Positions 9,518 to 26,779 of a DNA stretch of 30,426 nt are shown one piece after another. The stretch is from positions 1 through 30,426 of IMG/VR virus record IMGVR_UViG_3300032291_001638, one strand, 5' to 3'. The notes under the pieces were generated by a model. The model saw only the letters and a list, made by a program, of their open reading frames with translations, did no database searches and was not told the origin of the DNA. Made by a program: the position numbers and the translations under genes. This stretch comes from a virus. Numbering within the stretch: position 1 is the stretch's first letter; every line of letters starts with the position of its first letter.

Positions 9518-10279
9518 TTATTGATTTAATTTAATTGTAATTGTTGTGTCTAATTCTTTTTGTTGCTCAACTGATAAATTTAGTTTAGCAAAGAATTTAT
9601 CCCATCCTATTTCTGATATATCATCATATATCTCACTATATTCACTTAAAGGTATTTCATAGTTTAATAATTGTTGATATAGTTTATAAGCTACTCTATA
9701 ACTTAGTCCTTGTTCTATATCACTATCCAGGACAATGTCCTTAGACTTGTCCGTTGCTTTAACTTGTTCCTTGTTTTTATCCTTGTCTTTAACCTTGTCC
9801 TTGTCCTTGGGGGTATCGATAGGGTATGGATACTCTATGGATAGGGTATCAATAGGGTTAGTATAGTCTATCAATACCTTATACTCTTTTCTTTGTCTTG
9901 TATCAGTTTTACCATATGCATAGTCTATTAACTTTCCAGTCCACTTAATAATATTATTTTGTTCTAATATCTTTACAGCAGATAATACTGCTTTGTTAGT
10001 GCTTTCTAAAAAATCATTTCCATACTGATAAACACAGAATTTATTTATTAACCATTTGTCATCAGTTAATTGACTAACTCTTTTGTTGAATACTTTTAAT
10101 ATATCTTCAGCTGATACATTAGTATTACAATAGTAATTTAATAATTTAATGTTTCGTTTATAAACTCCTGCATTATCACAGGTGTCTAAAAGGTATTGCC
10201 AAATGATTTTATAATCACTACTTAATTCGGTATACCATTCATCTTTCCATTTGTCGGTGTCGGTAAATCTCTTTGCCAT
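9518..10279 (-). CDS. Replication initiator / replisome organiser-like protein
   Basis: This gene encodes 253 residues from the ATG at 10279. The N-terminal domain (about 1-115, opening AKRFTDTDKWKDEWYTELS with a later WQYLLDTCDNAGVY) matches the winged-helix N-terminus of phage replisome organisers and DnaD-like initiators. Residues 158-180 are a Lys/Asp repeat (KDKDKVKDKDKNK) that is surely flexible. The C-terminal part (about 190-253) is a helical domain ending DTTITIKLNQ, which may load helicase. The gene contains four 11-bp iteron-like repeats at 9814-9857, as the lambda O gene contains the lambda origin. It is preceded by a structured leader with a terminator-like hairpin, suggesting control of its level by RNA. 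Confidence 0.7.
   Translation of the reverse strand: MAKRFTDTDKWKDEWYTELSSDYKIIWQYLLDTCDNAGVYKRNIKLLNYYCNTNVSAEDILKVFNKRVSQLTDDKWLINKFCVYQYGNDFLESTNKAVLSAVKILEQNNIIKWTGKLIDYAYGKTDTRQRKEYKVLIDYTNPIDTLSIEYPYPIDTPKDKDKVKDKDKNKEQVKATDKSKDIVLDSDIEQGLSYRVAYKLYQQLLNYEIPLSEYSEIYDDISEIGWDKFFAKLNLSVEQQKELDTTITIKLNQ
9729..9741. repeat. Perfect palindrome inside the initiator gene
   Basis: AGGACA-A-TGTCCT is a perfect 6+1+6 palindrome about 75 bases downstream (in coding direction) of the iteron-like array. It could be a protein-binding site near an origin, or chance within the Lys/Asp-rich coding region, where GGACA is frequent. Confidence 0.3.
9814..9857 (-). repeat. Four tandem 11-bp iteron-like repeats, candidate replication origin
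   Basis: On the minus strand the units are CCCTATTGATA, CCCTATCCATA, GAGTATCCATA and CCCTATCGATA, head to tail without gaps (9847-9857, 9836-9846, 9825-9835, 9814-9824). A degenerate TATCAATA remains in phase at 9869. The period is not a multiple of three, so the repetition is at DNA level and not forced by the protein. An 11-bp period places each copy on nearly the same helix face. Confidence 0.6.
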
Positions 10280-10288
10280 AATTTAATT

Positions 10289-10335
10289 AAAAACCCCGTT
10301 GAACTATGAAGTAGGATTTCATAATTCTCAGGGGT
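10289..10335 (-). terminator. Terminator-like hairpin directly before the initiator start
   Basis: On the minus strand ACCCC (10331-10335) pairs with GGGGT (10293-10297) around the 10-bp inner stem, across a 3x3 internal loop. TTTTT follows (10289-10293). The initiator ATG is only about 13 bases further on. It would act as an attenuator or would mask the start region. Confidence 0.55.
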
Positions 10336-10399
10336 GTGTTTTGGAATTTCTTCCGTTATCTTTAATATAGTATCCTACACTATATGTTTTTTGTTTGAT
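10289..10399 (-). ncRNA. Structured leader or small RNA upstream of the initiator, with complementary hairpin loops
   Basis: The predicted transcript starts near 10399 and could end near 10289, about 110 nt. Hairpin 1 (10365-10385) is ATATAGT-GTAGGAT-ACTATAT, a perfect 7-bp stem. Hairpin 2 (10301-10327) is GAATTATGAA-ATCCTAC-TTCATAGTTC, a 10-bp stem with one G-U pair. The loops GTAGGAT and ATCCTAC are perfect reverse complements, so a 7-bp kissing interaction is possible. Hairpin 2 is extended by ACCCC/GGGGT and followed by five T. Promoter and terminator-like end make this either an attenuated leader of the initiator mRNA or a stand-alone RNA. Confidence 0.55.
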
Positions 10400-10405
10400 A
10401 TATGT

Positions 10406-10434
10406 AATATACGGCAAATATATTAAACTACCAA
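10406..10434 (-). promoter_or_regulatory. Promoter for the replication initiator leader
   Basis: On the minus strand TTGGTA (10429-10434), a 17-base spacer and TATATT (10406-10411) followed by ACAT. The motif, spacing and downstream tetramer match the site at 9034-9062 although the spacers differ in sequence, which argues for a functional element. It follows the terminator of the virion block by about 30 bases. Confidence 0.65.
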
Positions 10435-10463
10435 ATATAAGTACATGTATTTTTAAAAAGCAT

Positions 10464-10488
10464 AAAAAACCCCCATTTCTGAGGGTTT
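10464..10488 (-). terminator. Intrinsic terminator ending the virion block
   Basis: On the minus strand AAACCCTC (10481-10488) pairs with GGGGGTTT (10467-10474) around a 6-base loop, with one G-U pair. A run of six T extends to 10464. It lies 54 bases beyond the stop of the membrane/coiled-coil gene. Confidence 0.85.
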
Positions 10489-14451: not shown

Positions 14452-15324
14452 TTAGATAAATAAGTGAAGGTAGTCCGAATGATTTCCCCAATATGGATGT
14501 TCTAAGTAAGTATTATCTTTTCTGTAAATAGAATTATGTGAAGTGAAATGATGTCCGTGATTTATGTGTATTGCTTGATTTTCACAATTCCATTGTTTTC
14601 TTTTTAACTTTTGTGTTTCAATCATACCACTATTTGTTCTTAATGCATTAGGTAATATTGATAAACAATGTTCTATTGCGTCATCGAATGTCATAGTCAT
14701 CTCATGGAATGGTTCATCACTTTGACCTTTATGTTGCCAACCTTCTCTATTTATACCACCATAATTCATATTGGTATATACTTGACCACTTTCAAATTCA
14801 GGATAATCAAAATATCCAATAGGATACATTACATCATGTTCTAAAAAAGAAACATAATCATACTGTTTCATTTCCTTTGCAGAATATAAACACTGCATGA
14901 TTTGTAGTAATTGATTCAAATGTGATAATGATTGATACCAACTATTCAATTGATGAAACGGATTATCAGGCATTTCGTTCCACATACATGTAACGATATC
15001 TGCTTTACCTTCTGATGCAATCTTAATTGTATCTAATGATTTGTAAATAGAAGGCCATAAATCACGATTATTATTATTAGAATAAAATATTCCTAATCTT
15101 TTATGTGATGATTTTGGTATAGTAACTATATCACCTTCTTTAACTTTTTCTGAAAATACCTCTCCATTCAATTCTCCTGTTATTTCCAGATACTTTACTA
15201 CACCAACCATAGTATCACCTATAATGTTGTTATCTGACCTTAAAACTAATCTATTGTCTTTTACTTTTGATTGTATTGTTCCTGTACAATCTACCCCACC
15301 ATAAGTTGCTTTAGTTATTTGCAT
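14452..15324 (-). CDS. Glycosyltransferase-like protein with N-terminal beta domain
   Basis: This gene encodes 290 residues from the ATG at 15324, overlapping the methyltransferase gene by 14 bases. Residues 1-70 (ITKATYGGVDCTG to EGDIVTIP) form a small all-beta domain that I have seen fused to sugar-active or host-interaction proteins. Residues 75-290 resemble a GT-A glycosyltransferase. LGIFYSNNNNRDLW begins the nucleotide-binding fold. YVSFLEHDVMYP (157-168) carries the acidic metal site (Glu162-His-Asp164). HINHGHHFTSHN (253-264) resembles the C-terminal His motif of such enzymes. It probably transfers a sugar; donor and acceptor are unknown. It forms a cassette with the next two genes in the middle of tail genes, so a virion protein is a reasonable acceptor. 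Confidence 0.65.
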   Translation of the reverse strand: MQITKATYGGVDCTGTIQSKVKDNRLVLRSDNNIIGDTMVGVVKYLEITGELNGEVFSEKVKEGDIVTIPKSSHKRLGIFYSNNNNRDLWPSIYKSLDTIKIASEGKADIVTCMWNEMPDNPFHQLNSWYQSLSHLNQLLQIMQCLYSAKEMKQYDYVSFLEHDVMYPIGYFDYPEFESGQVYTNMNYGGINREGWQHKGQSDEPFHEMTMTFDDAIEHCLSILPNALRTNSGMIETQKLKRKQWNCENQAIHINHGHHFTSHNSIYRKDNTYLEHPYWGNHSDYLHLFI

Positions 15325-15835
15325 AATAATATACTCCTACTCTGTTTATATCGTATTCACCTAATTGGTAAATTTGATGATTATTAAAATTCCATTCTTT
15401 AATTTTTCTTTCACACATTGCTTTTGTTGGTTCATTATGATATTCAATTGCAATTTCATCTACAAACCACATTTCATCTTCGGTTATATTATCAAAAAAG
15501 ATTTCAGCTCCTTCAATATCACATTTAATTACCTGTGGTTTATACTGATTTAAAACATATTTCATCTTTTCTTCGGAGTCCATATGTAAAAAAAATATAG
15601 TGTATCTATCATCGTTACCATACAATCTTTCATATTTTTCAATATCTTGCATAGCAGAATCAAATCCAATTACTTGAATTGCATCTTTTGAAATAAAATA
15701 TTCAGATGATGATAACCAACCATCATTCCATGTACTATCCCAAAAGGAACAACCCATATCCAATACTCTTTTATCTTTTACATTTAAAAATCTCCAATGG
15801 TTTTCTGGATTCTCTGATGTTATTTTTTCTATCAT
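15311..15835 (-). CDS. SAM-dependent methyltransferase, FkbM-like
   Basis: This gene encodes 174 residues from the ATG at 15835. The start overlaps the upstream stop in an ATGA arrangement. Motif I is RVLDMGCS (23-30). The acidic residue binding the SAM ribose is in GFDS (57-60). The FkbM-type motif KCDIEGAE is at 104-111, followed by EIAIEYHNE. FkbM enzymes methylate hydroxyls, often on sugars. With glycosyltransferase-like genes on both sides in overlapping frames, O-methylation of a glycan is the most economical role. The protein is short for the family but the core motifs are complete. Confidence 0.8.
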   Translation of the reverse strand: MIEKITSENPENHWRFLNVKDKRVLDMGCSFWDSTWNDGWLSSSEYFISKDAIQVIGFDSAMQDIEKYERLYGNDDRYTIFFLHMDSEEKMKYVLNQYKPQVIKCDIEGAEIFFDNITEDEMWFVDEIAIEYHNEPTKAMCERKIKEWNFNNHQIYQLGEYDINRVGVYYYANN

Positions 15836-16782
15836 AATAAAACTGATTTAGATGCAGTTGTTTGAATCCAATTCCAATACATTGAACTTGCAGTGCCTGG
15901 ATTAATATTTAATTCTGCATTATATGGTAATCCATTCATATATTGTGCTTTATAGAACAATCCCATATTAGGAGCTGTTACACCTGCATTATGCATTATG
16001 TTTAATTTATGATAATCTTCTATTGTAGATGTTCCCCAACTAAATTCAAAGTTAGGATGACAATTAGTTTTTGCACCTCTTCTCCATCCACCCCATAATA
16101 CTGCCCACATATCTGCACACCATATTTGTAATTCGTGATATGATGGTTCTTTACTTTTCTTAATATTATTTAAGTCTGTAATTTGTTTGAATAATAACTC
16201 TGAATCTTTTTCTACTCTACTCCAAAAGTCATAATCAATATTCTTCATAAGATATTGAGCACCAATAGCATTGATTTCATTTGCTTCTATGACACTTTCA
16301 TCCATTTCCATAATCTCACACATCTTTTGGATTATATCGTCTCCTTTCCCTTTTATATAAGAATGAGCAATATACCAACGAGTATCACTACCATACCATT
16401 CTTCATCCATTATTAAATCATCAGTAATCCACTCTGAAATTGGTTTAGTAAATATAATATCACAATCATGATAGAAGATTGCATCCAATGATAATTCAGG
16501 AAATCTTTCCCAATGTTGTTTTAGAATGTTTGGTCTAATTGAACTGATGTAATGTTTTGTTTCTCTTGTGTCATCATAAAAGAAGAATCTTGCAGGATAA
16601 CCTTCGGCTAACTTACTCCATTCATTTGGTATTTCACCATTTTGTTTCCAACATACAATGTCAACATTATTTAAGTTAACACCCATTGATTGAAAATTAT
16701 TTAACATTACTTCAACTTGCCAAGCATAATACAAAGATGCCGGTTGTGCAGATACAAATCTTAAATTCCTAATACTAATCAT
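15832..16782 (-). CDS. Glycosyltransferase-like protein (GT-A, DxD)
   Basis: This gene encodes 316 residues from the ATG at 16782. The N-terminus (SIRNLRFVSAQPASLYYAWQVEVML) and VDIVCWKQNGEIP suggest the sugar-nucleotide fold. AIFYHDCDIIFTKP (101-114) has a clear DxD motif (Asp106-Cys-Asp108) for metal and nucleotide-sugar binding. Later, LQIWCADMWAVLWGGW and IMHNAGVTAPNMGLFYKAQY look like acceptor-side elements, and NAGV resembles the C-terminal His/Asn motifs of GT-A enzymes. It is first in a three-gene cassette, 41 bases after a Thr-tract protein. A protein-glycosylating role on virion proteins is inference; modification of host or DNA sugars is an alternative. Confidence 0.7.
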   Translation of the reverse strand: MISIRNLRFVSAQPASLYYAWQVEVMLNNFQSMGVNLNNVDIVCWKQNGEIPNEWSKLAEGYPARFFFYDDTRETKHYISSIRPNILKQHWERFPELSLDAIFYHDCDIIFTKPISEWITDDLIMDEEWYGSDTRWYIAHSYIKGKGDDIIQKMCEIMEMDESVIEANEINAIGAQYLMKNIDYDFWSRVEKDSELLFKQITDLNNIKKSKEPSYHELQIWCADMWAVLWGGWRRGAKTNCHPNFEFSWGTSTIEDYHKLNIMHNAGVTAPNMGLFYKAQYMNGLPYNAELNINPGTASSMYWNWIQTTASKSVLL

Positions 16783-16823: not shown

Positions 16824-17720
16824 TTATTCACTACAATCATCACACGGAACGCCTGGATATCTGTTCGTTATACTATAAGTTCCTAATGATGTACCTGTTG
16901 ATGTATTATTAACTTGGAAACAATAATATCCAGCAATACCACCACCTGCAATTCGTATACCATCACCAGGAGCTAGTAAAGGTGCATTTAATATTGTAAA
17001 TACTCCAATGATATCACCAGGACCTAAACAACTTGTCAATAAATACTTTTGAGATGCAAGAGTAGTTGTAGTTGTAGTAGTAGGTGCTGCAGTTGTTGTT
17101 GTTGTTGTAGTTGTAGAAGTTGTTGTTGTTGTAGTTGTGGTACTAGTTGTTGTAGTTGTTCCACCTGGACATCCCGATAAATCTCTAATTAACCAAAAAG
17201 GTTGGTCTAAATATGGGATTGTTCTACTACATACATATCTTAATGAACTACCTGAAACTGGAAAAGATAAGGTTGCCTTTGTTATTGTAGTTGCACCATC
17301 TGCAATGGTATACATATTTGTTTGTTGACTAATAGTTCTAATTGCATCCATTTCAAAAAATCTACTTCCAGTTGTTCTTGCAACAACTGTTCCTGTATGA
17401 TTTGATACAAAAGATGCACTTAACCATGCATTATTATCTAAACCTAATGGTAAAGTTTGTGCTGTAATTTGAGTTGTACTTCCTGATGTTAATGTAGTTG
17501 CAATTATACTACCTGATGTATTAACATAATTTAATGCAACATCATTTGAAGTTATATTTTTTACATTTAATACTTTTGCAACAGGTGCTTGAGGACTATC
17601 CCATGGATTACTTCTAATCACACTTCCTGAATTAAAAAAATAATGGAAATCTGCAAATAATGAATACTCTAAATCATTTACATCCCAAACAGGACCTCCT
17701 AATAATTGTGTTAATGACAT
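16824..17720 (-). CDS. Virion surface protein with Thr tract and Cys-containing C-terminal domain
   Basis: This gene encodes 298 residues from the ATG at 17720. Residues 1-180 are a beta-rich domain with a fibre-like composition (VKNITSNDVALNYVNTSG). Residues 188-220 are almost pure Thr with a few Ser and one AAP, a mucin-like spacer. The C-terminal domain (225-298) has Cys231, a Cys near 272 and CDDC close to the end, and is Gly-rich. The gene lies 4 bases after the 709-residue repeat protein. Thr tracts this dense suggest a rigid or glycosylated stalk displaying the terminal domain. Tail-tip location is inferred from neighbours. Confidence 0.75.
   Translation of the reverse strand: MSLTQLLGGPVWDVNDLEYSLFADFHYFFNSGSVIRSNPWDSPQAPVAKVLNVKNITSNDVALNYVNTSGSIIATTLTSGSTTQITAQTLPLGLDNNAWLSASFVSNHTGTVVARTTGSRFFEMDAIRTISQQTNMYTIADGATTITKATLSFPVSGSSLRYVCSRTIPYLDQPFWLIRDLSGCPGGTTTTTSTTTTTTTTSTTTTTTTTAAPTTTTTTTLASQKYLLTSCLGPGDIIGVFTILNAPLLAPGDGIRIAGGGIAGYYCFQVNNTSTGTSLGTYSITNRYPGVPCDDCSE
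17058..17159 (-). repeat. Thr-codon microsatellite (ACA/ACT-rich) in the 298-residue protein
   Basis: About 34 consecutive codons are nearly all ACN (ACA and ACT dominate), interrupted by single AGT and GCT/CCT codons. Related arrays occur at 19192-19323, 24251-24448 and 25187-25267, so the four tracts share long near-identical stretches at DNA level. Confidence 0.8.
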
Positions 17721-17724
17721 AATG

Positions 17725-19854
17725 TTATGATATTACTGATGATGTGAATAATCCATTAGAGCCTGTGTAATCAACTTCAAAACTAAATCCTGCACTATCA
17801 AACCACGCATCTGCAGTGTAAATATTACTAAATGCAGGTGGTAATGTAGTAGTTGTTGTAGTTGATGTTGTACAACCTCCTACTGCAGAGAATGAAGAAG
17901 TATAGTTAGGTCCTGATGGTAAAGTAATTTTCTTATCTTGAGTACAGAAACTACCACTTGTTCCACTAGCTACTGAGAATGAAGAACTAAAATTATTTCC
18001 ACAATATACATAGTCACCAATAAATGTAGTTCCTGTATTGTTGTTTATAATAGTAGCTAAGTAACAACCAGGTGCCAATGTTGTAGTTGTAGTAGTTGTA
18101 GCTGCACATCCACCTACTGGTCCAAAAGATGAAGTATAATAAGATGCACTTGGTGGTAAATCTATTTTTCTATCTTGAGTACAGAAACTTGCACTTGTTC
18201 CAGATTCTACACTAAATGATTGAGATACAGAAGTTCCACAATATACATAATTACCAACCCATGTAGTTCCAATATTATTATTTACAATAGTTGCTAAGTA
18301 ACAACCTGGTGCTAAAGTAGTCGTAGTTGTTGTTGTAGAATTACATCCACCAACAGCAGAGAACGATGATGTATAGTTAGGTCCTGACGGTAAGTCTATT
18401 TTTCTGTCTTGAGTACAGAATGAAGCAGAAGTACCACTAGAAACACTAAATGATTGAGAGAAGTTAGTTCCACAATATACATAATCTCCTGTGAATGTAA
18501 ATCCTGAAGTATTATTTATAATAGTAGCTAAGTAACATCCAGGTGCTAATGTAGTTGTTGTCGTAGTAGTTGAATTACAACTTCCAGAAATATTAATTAC
18601 ATAGTTAGGGCCAGTAGGTAAATCTATTTTACCATCTTGTACACACAATGTTATAGTTGATTCAGTTGGTACTGAGTAAGAAGAACTTACACTTGCTCCA
18701 CAATAAACATAATTACCAAAGAAGTCAAAGAATGTACCATTATTAGTAATTACAAATGTAGAACATCCAGGTGCTAATGTAGTTGTAGTTACACAACTTC
18801 CTGAAGTAATCAAATTACCACCACTTACTCTTTGTGGTATACCGATTGCACATATTTGATTATTAAATGGTGCATTTTGTGAATCTACCGTTGCACCACT
18901 AATTGCATTTCCATAACAGTTCACATAATTACCAAACCAAACATTTGTACTATCTGGGTTTAATATCCAAGTTTGACAACTTCCAGGAGCAATTGTAGTT
19001 GTAGTACATGCACCTAAGTTAGTTACAACAACCGGAGTTCCTCTTTCATACTTGTCACCTTGAATACAAATAGTATATTCTTCATTAGCTGATATTGCAA
19101 TACTTTGAGAATAGTTCGTTCCACATAATACATAATCAAAGTCAACTGTTACTCCCGAAGGTAAGTATAGTGAATACAAATTACAAGCAGCAATTGTAGT
19201 TGTTGTGGTAGTAGTACCTGCAATTGTAGTAGTTGTAGTTGTAGGGCCAGCAGTTGTCGTCGTAGTTGTAGTTGTAGGCCCAGCAGTTGTAGTCGTAGTA
19301 GGGCCTGCAGTAGTTGTTGGAGTATTTGTATTTGCTGCAGTAAATGTATTTCCAATAATAGGCCCTAATAGTTGTAGATTACATTCACCTGTTTTAAGTG
19401 AATAATCGTTTATAGCACGCAAATGATAATAGTTACCCCTAAAGTTTACAATATCATTTAATTCCATTTGGAAATATTCAGCTAAAGGTATAATTGCTGA
19501 ACAATTTACCAATCTTGTTTTTGGATTATATAATAAACTTATGTAAGTATCCCAATAATTTGTGTAAAGACTACCTATTGGTATTTCTCCATAGGATGCA
19601 TTTTCGTTTGTAAATAATAACGAATTAGAATCTACAGTTGGAAAACTACCTGTTACTACATTATAATTGTCAAAATATGGAAATGCATTTTGTTGAAATG
19701 TTACACCACCAAAAGTTGCTGAACCACTTTCAATCCAATAAGTTTCACAATCAATCAATCCATTATAAAAAAATAAACGAGGCAATACTCTTGCAGGAGT
19801 ATATTGTTCACTATTGATATAAGTTGGTATGTATATTGGTATTCTTTGACTCAT
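17725..19854 (-). CDS. Tail protein with six tandem four-Cys repeats and Thr linkers
   Basis: This gene encodes 709 residues from the ATG at 19854. Residues 1-170 are a globular domain (ARVLPRLFFYNGLIDCETYW, later YWDTYISLLYNPKTRLVNC and NDIVNFRGNYYHLRAINDYS) that looks like a tail hub or fibre-attachment domain. Residues 178-221 are a Thr tract broken by AGP. Six repeats of 60-66 residues follow (about 224-283, 293-354, 364-426, 440-504, 518-583, 598-661). Each has four Cys in the frame C...YVxCG...C(T/V/I)Q...GxC, joined by TTTTTLAPG linkers. The last three repeats are nearly identical, pointing to recent duplication. The C-terminus (670-709) is a short beta segment. It is likely a surface-exposed adhesin or side fibre. 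Confidence 0.8.
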   Translation of the reverse strand: MSQRIPIYIPTYINSEQYTPARVLPRLFFYNGLIDCETYWIESGSATFGGVTFQQNAFPYFDNYNVVTGSFPTVDSNSLLFTNENASYGEIPIGSLYTNYWDTYISLLYNPKTRLVNCSAIIPLAEYFQMELNDIVNFRGNYYHLRAINDYSLKTGECNLQLLGPIIGNTFTAANTNTPTTTAGPTTTTTAGPTTTTTTTTAGPTTTTTTIAGTTTTTTTIAACNLYSLYLPSGVTVDFDYVLCGTNYSQSIAISANEEYTICIQGDKYERGTPVVVTNLGACTTTTIAPGSCQTWILNPDSTNVWFGNYVNCYGNAISGATVDSQNAPFNNQICAIGIPQRVSGGNLITSGSCVTTTTLAPGCSTFVITNNGTFFDFFGNYVYCGASVSSSYSVPTESTITLCVQDGKIDLPTGPNYVINISGSCNSTTTTTTTLAPGCYLATIINNTSGFTFTGDYVYCGTNFSQSFSVSSGTSASFCTQDRKIDLPSGPNYTSSFSAVGGCNSTTTTTTTLAPGCYLATIVNNNIGTTWVGNYVYCGTSVSQSFSVESGTSASFCTQDRKIDLPPSASYYTSSFGPVGGCAATTTTTTTLAPGCYLATIINNNTGTTFIGDYVYCGNNFSSSFSVASGTSGSFCTQDKKITLPSGPNYTSSFSAVGGCTTSTTTTTTLPPAFSNIYTADAWFDSAGFSFEVDYTGSNGLFTSSVIS
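17872..19185 (-). repeat. Six tandem repeats encoding four-Cys domains
   Basis: Units begin near 19185, 18978, 18765, 18537, 18303 and 18063. Spacing grows from about 207 to 240 bases because the Thr linkers lengthen. The three units nearest the C-terminus share long runs of near-identical DNA, including the codons for YVYCG and FCTQD. Confidence 0.8.
19192..19323 (-). repeat. Thr-codon microsatellite in the 709-residue protein
   Basis: About 44 codons, mostly ACN, divided by AGP and IAG spacers into blocks of 3 to 8 Thr. It separates the N-terminal attachment-like domain from the Cys repeats. Confidence 0.8.
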
Positions 19855-23500: not shown

Positions 23501-26500
23501 TTAAGGTGCTAGAGTTGTTGTAGTTGTTCCACCACAAACTCCTAAATTAGTTATTATTGTATTAGTAGGAACTTCTGCAATAGGTGTAGCATAACTACAT
23601 ACATTTACACTTGATGATGCTGGTACAGAAATAGTTTGTGAACTACCAGTACAATTAACAATATAAACATTTCTTGCAGTACTAACATTTGTATTTTGGA
23701 ATGACCAATTATAACAAATAGAGCCTGAACATATATGTGCTCCTAATATTGCACATCTATTACATTGGTCAGCACCATATCCATATCCATATGTAAATTC
23801 ATTAGCTTGTGTTATTACAAATGATGGAATTACTGCAGAAGAACTTGCAACTAATGTTTCACATCTATCAGTTGTTGGATTATATAATACTAATCCAACT
23901 GCAGAAGCAGGCCAGAATAAACTTCCACTTTGTATTGCTACATAACTATATGATGAAGTAGTACAACAATCAACTGATTGATAAAAATTATAAATACCAG
24001 GAGCCAATGTTGTAGTAGTTGTAGTTGCACAAGCTAATGCACAACTATTATAAGGAATTGTATCCATTGTCAATGCTCCACCAGGAGTTGATACTGAATT
24101 TATTAAATAAGAATATGCAGTATTTGGATTGGTTCTATAAAACTTACCTATTGTTACAACTGTACCTGCGGGGAATTTGACAGGTGTTGGGCCTGTTAAA
24201 GTACATCCTGTACAACTATATTCATCAGCACTATAATAATCATATGATATTGTTGTTGTCGTAGTTGTACCTGCTGTTGTCGTAGTCGTTGTTGCTGCTG
24301 CCGTAGTCGTTGTAGTTGTAGGTGCTACAGTCGTTGTAGTTGTAGTAGGAGCAAGTGTTGTTGTCGTAGTACTAGTTGTACTTGTTGTAGTCGTAGTAGT
24401 AGGAGCAAGTGTTGTCGTGCTAGTTGTACTTGTTGTTGTGGTTGTAGTTGGTGCATTCCAAATAAATGTACCATTACTACTAAATGTATGGTATGTATAT
24501 CCACCACTTTGTGAAATACTTCCACCTGTTGCTCTTGGAGTACCTGCGTATCTGATTTTTACAATACCATTTTGACCTGCAGTTCCTACTCCTTCACTAA
24601 CACCTGTTCCACCATTTCCAGCTGAACCAGCATTTTCAGGGTCATCGTTTGAACCAGCTCCTTTACCACCACTAGAATAATAAAATCCATCTAACCATAG
24701 TTTAGATAAACCTGGTTTTCTTGCACCTAAATCTCCTATATCGTATGGAGCACTTGAGGCACCACCACCATTACCACCTCTATATAGATTCAAACCAACT
24801 AATTGTGCACCACTATTACCTGCAAATCCTTGTCCTGCAGTTCCACTACCGCCAGCTCCTGCTTGACTATATCCACCTCCACCTGAACCACCATTAGCGC
24901 CATTTCCAAGTCCTGATTGTCTTCCACCATATCCACCACCTATTGCTTCTAAACCTAAAAATGTAGAGTTTGTTCCACTTTGATTATTTGAACCACCATA
25001 TGTTCCTGCAGTTCCACCGGTACCAACAACTACATCTAATGAATTTAAACCAGTTAAAGTTGTGCTACCACTTATATATCCACCAGCACCACCACCCGCA
25101 GCATATGCTTCTCTTCCTGCAAAGTTATCATTACTTCCACCACCACCACCTGCAACTAATAAATACTCAATATTTAAGAAAGGACTTTCAGTTGTAGTTG
25201 TAGTTGTAGTACTTGTTGTGGAAGTAGTAGTACTTGTAGTACTAGTCGTACTTGTTGTAGTAGTTGTACCAGGCGTTATGGTTTTATTACATAAATAAAA
25301 TGTATTATTTTGTTGTATTTCAGCTTGTGTTAAATCTCTATTGTAATATAAAATATATTGTATAGAGCCACTCAATGCATTCCAAGTTATTGGCCCAAAT
25401 GGAGATGTATATGTTCTTTGAGGGCCACCAAACAATTGTATTGAAGATGATGTAGCTGCTGCTCCTGTAAATGTAATTCCGTTACCATTAAAAGCTCTGC
25501 CTATATTTTCATTTAATCCTGAACCGCTTCCTGATAATGGATTAGTATCCATTGATAGAGTTACTTCTGATAATCCACCACTTCCACTTTGTCTACCAAT
25601 ATAAGTAAACTGATGAGGTAATGTTAATGATGCAGTAATTGGTGTATCTTTGGTAGTTACTAATGCGTGATATGCTACCAAATCAGGTGTAGTACTTCCT
25701 GATGTTTGCGTTGAAAATGACCAAACCGGATTATTCACTAAACTACCACTTGTACCATTAAAAGCTATAAGTTGTCCGTATTGTGTAACATTATTTACAT
25801 CATTTATTTTTCCATAAGTATCAATTGTCCATTTCCAACTTTGATACATTTGATTTGCATCTATATCAAATTCTATATACGATGATGTTCCATCAAATTG
25901 TAATGCACTTGATGAATTAGTAAGATTACCATACCAATTTGCATTATATCCATTACCAGATTTGTCCGTCAATGTACCATCTGTATTATAAGAAGTATAA
26001 TCAAATGCCATTATTAAACCATCTCTAACGATATCAATGGTTTGGCATTGTACACATACACTACAAGTAGTAAAAGTTTTAAGTACAGGTAAACCAACAA
26101 GATTCCAACTATCAAAGTCTTCAACTTCTTCTAATACTTCATAACATGCACCATCATAAGGATAATATGATGAAAATACACTACCAGTTGCAACTTGAGT
26201 ATTTAATACTGCGTAATAAGTTTCAGATGTCGAACAATTTTGTATTTGATAACCGCTACCAGACGGGTTAATCAAAAAAAAAAGACAACGGTTTCTATCG
26301 TTGTGAGTAGTCAAAGTAAATGTGGCGACATGGCCAGCTAGTCCATTATTAAATCTATCGACAAAAGGTTCACAAACAATATCTGTATCTATATCAAATG
26401 CTGCTACTGAATATTCTGTATATGAAGTTAAATCATTTATAATAGCAAGTGTGTTTGCAAGAATATCAATAGTATCGTCAACACCAAAAAATGGAATACT

Positions 26501-26779
26501 TTGTGCATTAGTGACAGGGTTAGATTCGTTATTCTTATTTTTAATCTTATCAGCTATTATCAATTGTACTTGAAACTTAGTTGTTGATTCTTGTATGTTT
26601 GTAGTGAATATATTTACATTACCTATCGGATACATTGGAAATTCCTTTGTATCTACCTCTAACAAATCGCCAGTTGTTACTTTAGCAATAGAAGGGTGAT
26701 TGGTCATTATTGTTTTAAAATAATCCAATGCATTATAATATAAAGTATAATTCGTTCCTTGATTGTATATTACTGACAT
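23501..26779 (-). CDS. Mosaic adhesin with connector/terminator-like N-terminus, LamG-like, Gly-rich and Cys domains
   Basis: This gene encodes 1092 residues from the ATG at 26779. Residues 1-165 look like a neck or tail-terminator domain (DYFKTIMTNHPSIAKVTTGD, later FQVQLIIADK). Residues about 235-247 are Cys-rich (CSVCVQC). Residues 253-497 resemble a LamG/concanavalin-type lectin (GLIMAFDYTSYN, ALQFDGTSSYIEF, IQYILYYNRDLTQAE). Residues 505-530 are a Thr/Ser tract. Residues 537-744 are a glycine-rich domain (YLLVAGGGGG to GIVKIRY) known from phage fibre tips, followed by GYTYHTFSSNGTF. Residues 778-843 are a long Thr tract. Cys modules and a four-Cys domain (1022-1082) follow. The protein ends in TTTTTLAP. 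It is likely a surface glycan-binding protein anchored at the neck. Confidence 0.8.
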   Translation of the reverse strand: MSVIYNQGTNYTLYYNALDYFKTIMTNHPSIAKVTTGDLLEVDTKEFPMYPIGNVNIFTTNIQESTTKFQVQLIIADKIKNKNNESNPVTNAQSIPFFGVDDTIDILANTLAIINDLTSYTEYSVAAFDIDTDIVCEPFVDRFNNGLAGHVATFTLTTHNDRNRCLFFLINPSGSGYQIQNCSTSETYYAVLNTQVATGSVFSSYYPYDGACYEVLEEVEDFDSWNLVGLPVLKTFTTCSVCVQCQTIDIVRDGLIMAFDYTSYNTDGTLTDKSGNGYNANWYGNLTNSSSALQFDGTSSYIEFDIDANQMYQSWKWTIDTYGKINDVNNVTQYGQLIAFNGTSGSLVNNPVWSFSTQTSGSTTPDLVAYHALVTTKDTPITASLTLPHQFTYIGRQSGSGGLSEVTLSMDTNPLSGSGSGLNENIGRAFNGNGITFTGAAATSSSIQLFGGPQRTYTSPFGPITWNALSGSIQYILYYNRDLTQAEIQQNNTFYLCNKTITPGTTTTTSTTSTTSTTTSTTSTTTTTTTESPFLNIEYLLVAGGGGGSNDNFAGREAYAAGGGAGGYISGSTTLTGLNSLDVVVGTGGTAGTYGGSNNQSGTNSTFLGLEAIGGGYGGRQSGLGNGANGGSGGGGYSQAGAGGSGTAGQGFAGNSGAQLVGLNLYRGGNGGGASSAPYDIGDLGARKPGLSKLWLDGFYYSSGGKGAGSNDDPENAGSAGNGGTGVSEGVGTAGQNGIVKIRYAGTPRATGGSISQSGGYTYHTFSSNGTFIWNAPTTTTTTSTTSTTTLAPTTTTTTSTTSTTTTTLAPTTTTTTVAPTTTTTTAAATTTTTTAGTTTTTTISYDYYSADEYSCTGCTLTGPTPVKFPAGTVVTIGKFYRTNPNTAYSYLINSVSTPGGALTMDTIPYNSCALACATTTTTTLAPGIYNFYQSVDCCTTSSYSYVAIQSGSLFWPASAVGLVLYNPTTDRCETLVASSSAVIPSFVITQANEFTYGYGYGADQCNRCAILGAHICSGSICYNWSFQNTNVSTARNVYIVNCTGSSQTISVPASSSVNVCSYATPIAEVPTNTIITNLGVCGGTTTTTLAP
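24251..24448 (-). repeat. Long Thr-codon array in the mosaic adhesin
   Basis: About 66 codons, mostly ACN, with Ser, LAP, VAP and AG interruptions, between the glycine-rich domain and the Cys modules. Confidence 0.8.
25187..25267 (-). repeat. Thr/Ser-codon array in the mosaic adhesin
   Basis: About 27 codons alternating short Thr blocks with single Ser codons, between the LamG-like and glycine-rich domains. Confidence 0.8.

Follow-up and report, generated by a model that had tools for sequence, protein, structure and literature searches.

A leader RNA with mutually complementary hairpin loops and terminator anatomy ahead of replication-type genes in uncultured phages

RNA I and RNA II of plasmid ColE1 meet through fully paired 7-nt loops. 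In the I-complex plasmids (IncI, IncB/O, IncK), where RNAI and the rep leader form kissing loops ahead of a replication gene, a single RNAI loop nucleotide can change compatibility, and such changes can render replicons compatible (PMC10724649). Phages offer related cases. In one published summary, P4 immunity silences replication genes by premature termination via complementary segments of one leader, the partners of a processed RNA being the up- and downstream segments seqA and seqC (PMC4825925). The same source describes IsrK of the Salmonella prophage Gifsy-1, a small terminated RNA that on read-through becomes an mRNA extending into an antirepressor gene; translation of this long form is activated by the short one, and 'kissing' is a word that the paper does not use (PMC4825925).

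Here we describe a locus resembling these systems in an uncultured phage sequence of 30,426 nucleotides (IMG/VR record IMGVR_UViG_3300032291_001638, positions 1 to 30,426), referred to in its whole length as the window. The features discussed are the following, all read on the minus strand.

10467 to 10488, minus: intrinsic terminator closing the upstream operon, just before the leader promoter
10404 to 10435, minus: promoter, with -33 TTTG at 10435-10432, a 20-nt spacer and -7 box TATATTAC at 10411-10404
10289 to 10399, minus: leader RNA of about 111 nt, running from the predicted start through the U run
10365 to 10385, minus: hairpin 1 (H1), stem ATATAGT/ACTATAT
10372 to 10378, minus: loop 1, GTAGGAT, partner of loop 2
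10343 to 10354, minus: mini-hairpin GGAA-GAAA-UUCC with a GNRA tetraloop, between H1 and H2
10293 to 10335, minus: hairpin 2 (H2), terminator stem ACCCC/GGGGU plus GAATTATGAA/TTCATAGTTC
10311 to 10317, minus: loop 2, ATCCTAC, exact reverse complement of loop 1
10289 to 10293, minus: terminator U run
9518 to 10279, minus: ORF that immediately follows the leader, 253 aa, probably a DnaD-like replisome organizer or replication initiator

A sequence-only reading of this DNA had proposed a kissing-loop leader RNA made of two hairpins whose loops are exact reverse complements. Re-reading of the minus strand bears out both hairpins and both loops, and the proposed span of 10289 to 10399 coincides with the RNA start predicted from the -7 box and the predicted end at the U run. 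The inventory of hairpins was incomplete, the mini-hairpin at 10354-10343 having been overlooked. The 7-nt loop of H1 is supported by comparative data, whereas thermodynamics alone draws a shorter H1 loop in the window. The upper part of H2, GAATTATGAA-ATCCTAC-TTCATAGTTC (10327-10301), includes one U-G pair and is extended by ACCCC (10335-10331) and GGGGT (10297-10293). With this ACCCC/GGGGU base followed by a U run, H2 is by its anatomy an intrinsic terminator. Nine bases separate the U run from the ATG of the next ORF at 10279.

Judged by analogy, the nearest known counterparts of the leader are the immunity RNA of P4, which is the closest precedent, and the kissing-loop copy control of plasmids, and we claim membership in neither. 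The locus shares with P4 an untranslated phage leader before replication genes, complementary segments within the same transcript and, by prediction, premature termination. It differs in that only two hairpin loops pair, one of them carried by the terminator; compared with the seqA-CI-seqC layout of P4, which has two targets, we found one complementary loop pair only. With IsrK it shares the order of promoter, terminator and read-through gene, a likeness of anatomy only, and one relative of the leader (L079, below) likewise precedes an antirepressor. The plasmid comparison, already drawn by the sequence-only reading for ColE1 and IncI, holds for the geometry, the kissing of 6-8 loop nucleotides found in I-complex plasmids and ColE1 being present here as well as the position ahead of a replication gene. 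It fails for the antisense layout: RNAI is an antisense RNA from the other strand and ColE1 uses a sense-antisense pair controlling a primer RNA, whereas here both loops lie on one strand, in one transcript, in the leader of a probable initiator. No antisense promoter across the leader appeared in sigma-70 or Bacteroidota-consensus scans, both of them simple consensus matches.

Folding of the leader in the window gave an energy of -27.8 kcal/mol (z = -4.45), which none of 200 shuffles equalled. Dinucleotide shuffling of the leader, repeated 60,000 times, never produced two hairpins with fully complementary 7-nt loops. Across phage loci totalling about 1.2 Mb, seven complementary loop bases occurred elsewhere only at two unrelated sites (L058 and L064) and in further copies of the leader.

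Relatives were gathered stepwise, via the window ORF, then leader patterns, then terminase. The leader was found on 23 other uncultured phage contigs, giving with the window 24 copies and 15 distinct sequences; because pattern-based searches favour copies with a conserved scaffold, these numbers probably underestimate both prevalence and loop diversity. Each phage contig holds one convincing copy. Seven types of loop 1 were distinguished (loop 1/loop 2).

GTAGGAT/ATCCTAC: window, L002
GTAGGCT/AGCCTAC: L004, L005
GTAGGAA/TTCCTAC: L074, L079
GTTGGAT/ATCCAAC: L200, L203, L206, L208, L209, L215, L217, L226
ATCTCAC/GTGAGAT: L205, L211, L245
ATCGCAC/GTGCGAT: L216, L259
GTGAGAT/ATCTCAC: L229, L238, L241, L268, L270

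Complementarity of the two loops is perfect in all 24 copies, with no exception, so that the case named beforehand as fatal to the kissing-loop proposal, one loop changing without the other, occurs in none of them. L259, L268 and L270 amount to an independent test, since they were reached via terminase without any leader pattern. One loop duplex occurs in both polarities, with GTGAGAT in H1 and ATCTCAC in H2 of L229 (5307-5411) and the reverse arrangement in L205 (8210-8314). In L268 and L270 the tetraloop of the mini-hairpin is GCAA. The distant copy L079 (8820-8916) has no mini-hairpin and a shorter linker and retains its loop pair; among the copies, it alone sits in a phage contig that carries an integrase-like ORF along with a Bro-N/KilAC antirepressor.

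Compensatory changes in the loops, which the sequence-only reading had regarded as decisive, are present in relatives, and the stems show such changes as well. Among 13 distinct aligned sequences, all 91 cells of the loop-loop helix are Watson-Crick pairs and six of its seven pairs have changed on both sides; loop-loop covariation was also assessed on an 11-sequence alignment. Pairing overall reaches 99.1% of cells in the 13 sequences, compared with 33-45% when partners are slid by 1-3 columns and 81% after shuffling, and alignment slips in L004 account for some of the few unpaired cells. Both stems covary too, with compensation in 4 of 7 stem pairs of H1 and 6 of 10 pairs of the upper stem of H2. 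The G-C base of the terminator is conserved and its U run invariant across the alignment, despite the variable upper stem and loop. We consider it almost certain from these comparisons that the loop-loop pairing is real. Complementarity of two ordinary hairpins by chance, for which one could cite the abundance of hairpins in an AT-rich window, is refuted by the covariation; together with the shuffles, it leaves this explanation a negligible probability.

The same alignment tells which molecule folds. About 18 cells pair as G-U when the minus strand is read; on the opposite strand they would be A-C mismatches, which argues that the folded molecule is the minus-strand leader RNA and not DNA. A DNA element, with single-stranded hairpins or cruciforms of a replication origin beside the initiator, would suit the location next to a replication gene; given these mismatches, and a conserved promoter and U run that indicate RNA, we regard it as very improbable.

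Divergence is concentrated in the loops. Mean pairwise difference is 0.41 for each loop, 0.24 and 0.29 for the stems, about 0.1 for the linkers and 0 for the mini-hairpin. Exactly 2 of 105 leader bases distinguish the window from L200, and these two bases form one of the loop pairs; a simple count puts the chance that two random changes strike one of the seven loop pairs at about 7/5460. Between the window and L205, 10 of 14 loop bases differ and only 6 of the 91 others (P = 2e-7). Computed loop-loop energies of cognate pairs range from -7.4 to -9.8 kcal/mol and most mixed pairs are far weaker, although the GTAGGAT, GTAGGCT and GTAGGAA types are predicted to cross-pair still.

This pattern looks like that of specificity determinants, and may be so, the alternative being neutral compensation. 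The latter belongs to an explanation in which the leader acts purely in cis: loop pairing and the GNRA mini-hairpin would build a compact tertiary fold, a sensor or protein-binding site governing the terminator, while compensated changes let the loop letters drift neutrally, with no action in trans. One RNA does carry both loops, its linker hardly varies, rough geometry would permit pairing in cis, and loop type is independent of the downstream gene family. Neutral drift, on the other hand, poorly explains loops that change while linkers and the H2 stem do not (window and L200, window and L205), and L079 keeps its loop pair without a mini-hairpin. Altogether we find the purely cis-acting leader possible and rather unlikely.

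The leader comes with a promoter of its own, as the sequence-only reading had maintained. This promoter, TTTG-N20-TATATTAC, is by its sequence of the Bacteroidota type, and the spacing TTTG-N20-TATATTNN recurs in 14 of 17 leader copies examined as well as in the leaderless relatives L003 and L009. The sigma-A box of Flavobacterium, TAnnTTTG, is positioned at -12 to -5 (PMC9723704); the same placement applied to TATATTAC predicts a transcription start at 10399. Promoter type and distant Flavobacterium terminase matches suggest that the host probably belongs to Bacteroidota.

Next to the leader, the window ORF matches no Pfam or PHROG family. Its AlphaFold model (mean pLDDT 75.6) matches the DnaD-like replication protein A0A8S5TW24 (E 2.9e-4), together with viral DnaD-like and replisome-organizer models; a fold search against the PDB returned nothing significant. 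For P0001, the only relative among cultured phages was a distant one, in Pseudanabaena phage Pan5. The proteins encoded directly behind the leader in relatives include recognised replication-initiation genes.

L074, L200: DUF6291 proteins
L203: DnaD-like/replisome-organizer protein
L205, L259 (weakly L229): Lin1244-type replication initiation proteins
L245: DUF1376-like protein, below the cut-off
L270: another replication-initiation family
L079: Bro-N/KilAC antirepressor

The name 'initiator' given earlier to the window ORF is therefore likely, on the strength of the predicted fold and the relatives' genes, despite the missing family matches. Putative initiators appear chimera-like, sharing C-terminal ends and having unrelated N-terminal domains; shared C-terminal ends connect the window ORF (9518-10279) with L009, L205 with L245, and L074 with L229 and L259. 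Elsewhere in the window (16824-19854, 23501-26779 and 14452-16782), long threonine tracts mark predicted virion proteins whose neighbouring ORFs resemble glycosyltransferases by eye and gave no Pfam match; these virion proteins might be sugar-decorated.

One loop type precedes different gene families and one family follows different loop types. Since the two do not track each other, it is unlikely that the protein reads the loops. In every copy found, a replication-type or antirepressor ORF begins with its ATG within about 15 bases downstream. This weighs against a stand-alone small RNA of about 111 nt that targets host or other RNAs, or multimerises, with the downstream gene as a mere neighbour; so does the lack of enrichment of loop 7-mers, which in most phage pieces examined occur about once, in the leader itself. 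The complete promoter-to-terminator unit, its sharing by several unrelated downstream genes and its scatter over the terminase tree would fit such an RNA, which we nevertheless hold to be improbable.

Leader presence and loop type are both scattered over that TerL tree, as expected for a mobile control cassette; with its weak inner forks and one long branch (L004), the tree gives only rough counts of gains and losses. In L003, whose ORF is 95% identical to that of the window, the same promoter leads straight to the ATG without a leader, which presents the leader as an added layer of control. Rfam searches at gathering and loose thresholds returned no family match, c4 antisense RNA (RF01695) included, and blastn against cultured phages and plasmids found no leader; Flavobacterium phage matches to the region were rejected as leaders, comprising the promoter region only. 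A covariance model run with strict filters on 299 genomes from the genus of a Flavobacterium seed detected no leader, eight weak matches being terminators or other sequence without loop pairing, and its opposite-strand matches were weak echoes of the same hairpins. The leader pattern was found in 0 of 395 genomes of the class of the Flavobacterium seed. A pattern scan of genome contigs yielded, among the matches listed, an unrelated Flavobacterium repeat and chance matches. The repeat, ACCATAACATTAGTAGGTTAAG...GGTAGATTTGGGGCAAAAAGGGTGGAAGAAATTCCACCTTTTTT, includes a hairpin and a U run and lies on Flavobacterium chromosomes; possibly a small RNA, it is unrelated to the leader and without an Rfam match in L122; its sites are in L092, L121, L122 (two), L152, L159, L163 (two), L164 (two), L193 (two) and L194.

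The reading that we consider best, and in which our confidence is about even, is a cis-encoded RNA attenuator heading a phage replication operon, with the loops as specificity determinants. That the leader attenuates the downstream gene seems fairly probable; specificity of the loops in trans is doubtful. Transcription would start near 10399, RNA polymerase making H1 and then the H2 terminator. Many transcripts would end at 10289 as an RNA of about 111 nt, and the replication gene would be expressed only from read-through or relieved transcripts. H1 would grip H2 by seven loop-loop base pairs, setting how well H2 forms or holds. A search of the leader for a competing antiterminator helix found none, which counts against this reading and leaves the loop pairing as the one visible handle on the terminator. 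The terminated RNA, carrying both loops, could probably also pair, in trans, with leaders of the same loop type while these are being transcribed, as P4 CI RNA does, and such pairing would make the loops determinants of immunity or copy-control specificity. Trans action could be weak, since a molecule that carries both loops is more apt to pair in cis. The attenuator gains support from P4 and IsrK, in which terminated leaders have been described ahead of replication or antirepressor genes (PMC4825925). Its patchy occurrence among relatives also counts against it, because phages can evidently do without the leader.

More speculatively still, and with less confidence than in the trans specificity of the loops, the leader might serve an RNA incompatibility system of phages. 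Loop types would then resemble the incompatibility groups of plasmids: a resident phage would, through its terminated leader, block the replication gene of an incomer of the same type, and selection for escape would drive the lockstep change of both loops in an otherwise almost invariant leader.

The leader represents a structured RNA family without an Rfam entry, in which a tertiary contact is demonstrated by covariation. It is placed where control of replication is possible, in little-studied phages probably of Bacteroidota. Natural orthogonal loop pairs on a near-constant scaffold make specificity directly testable. If true, loop specificity would link plasmid-style RNA copy control to phages, and the pairing may control when, and beside which relatives, a phage replicates.
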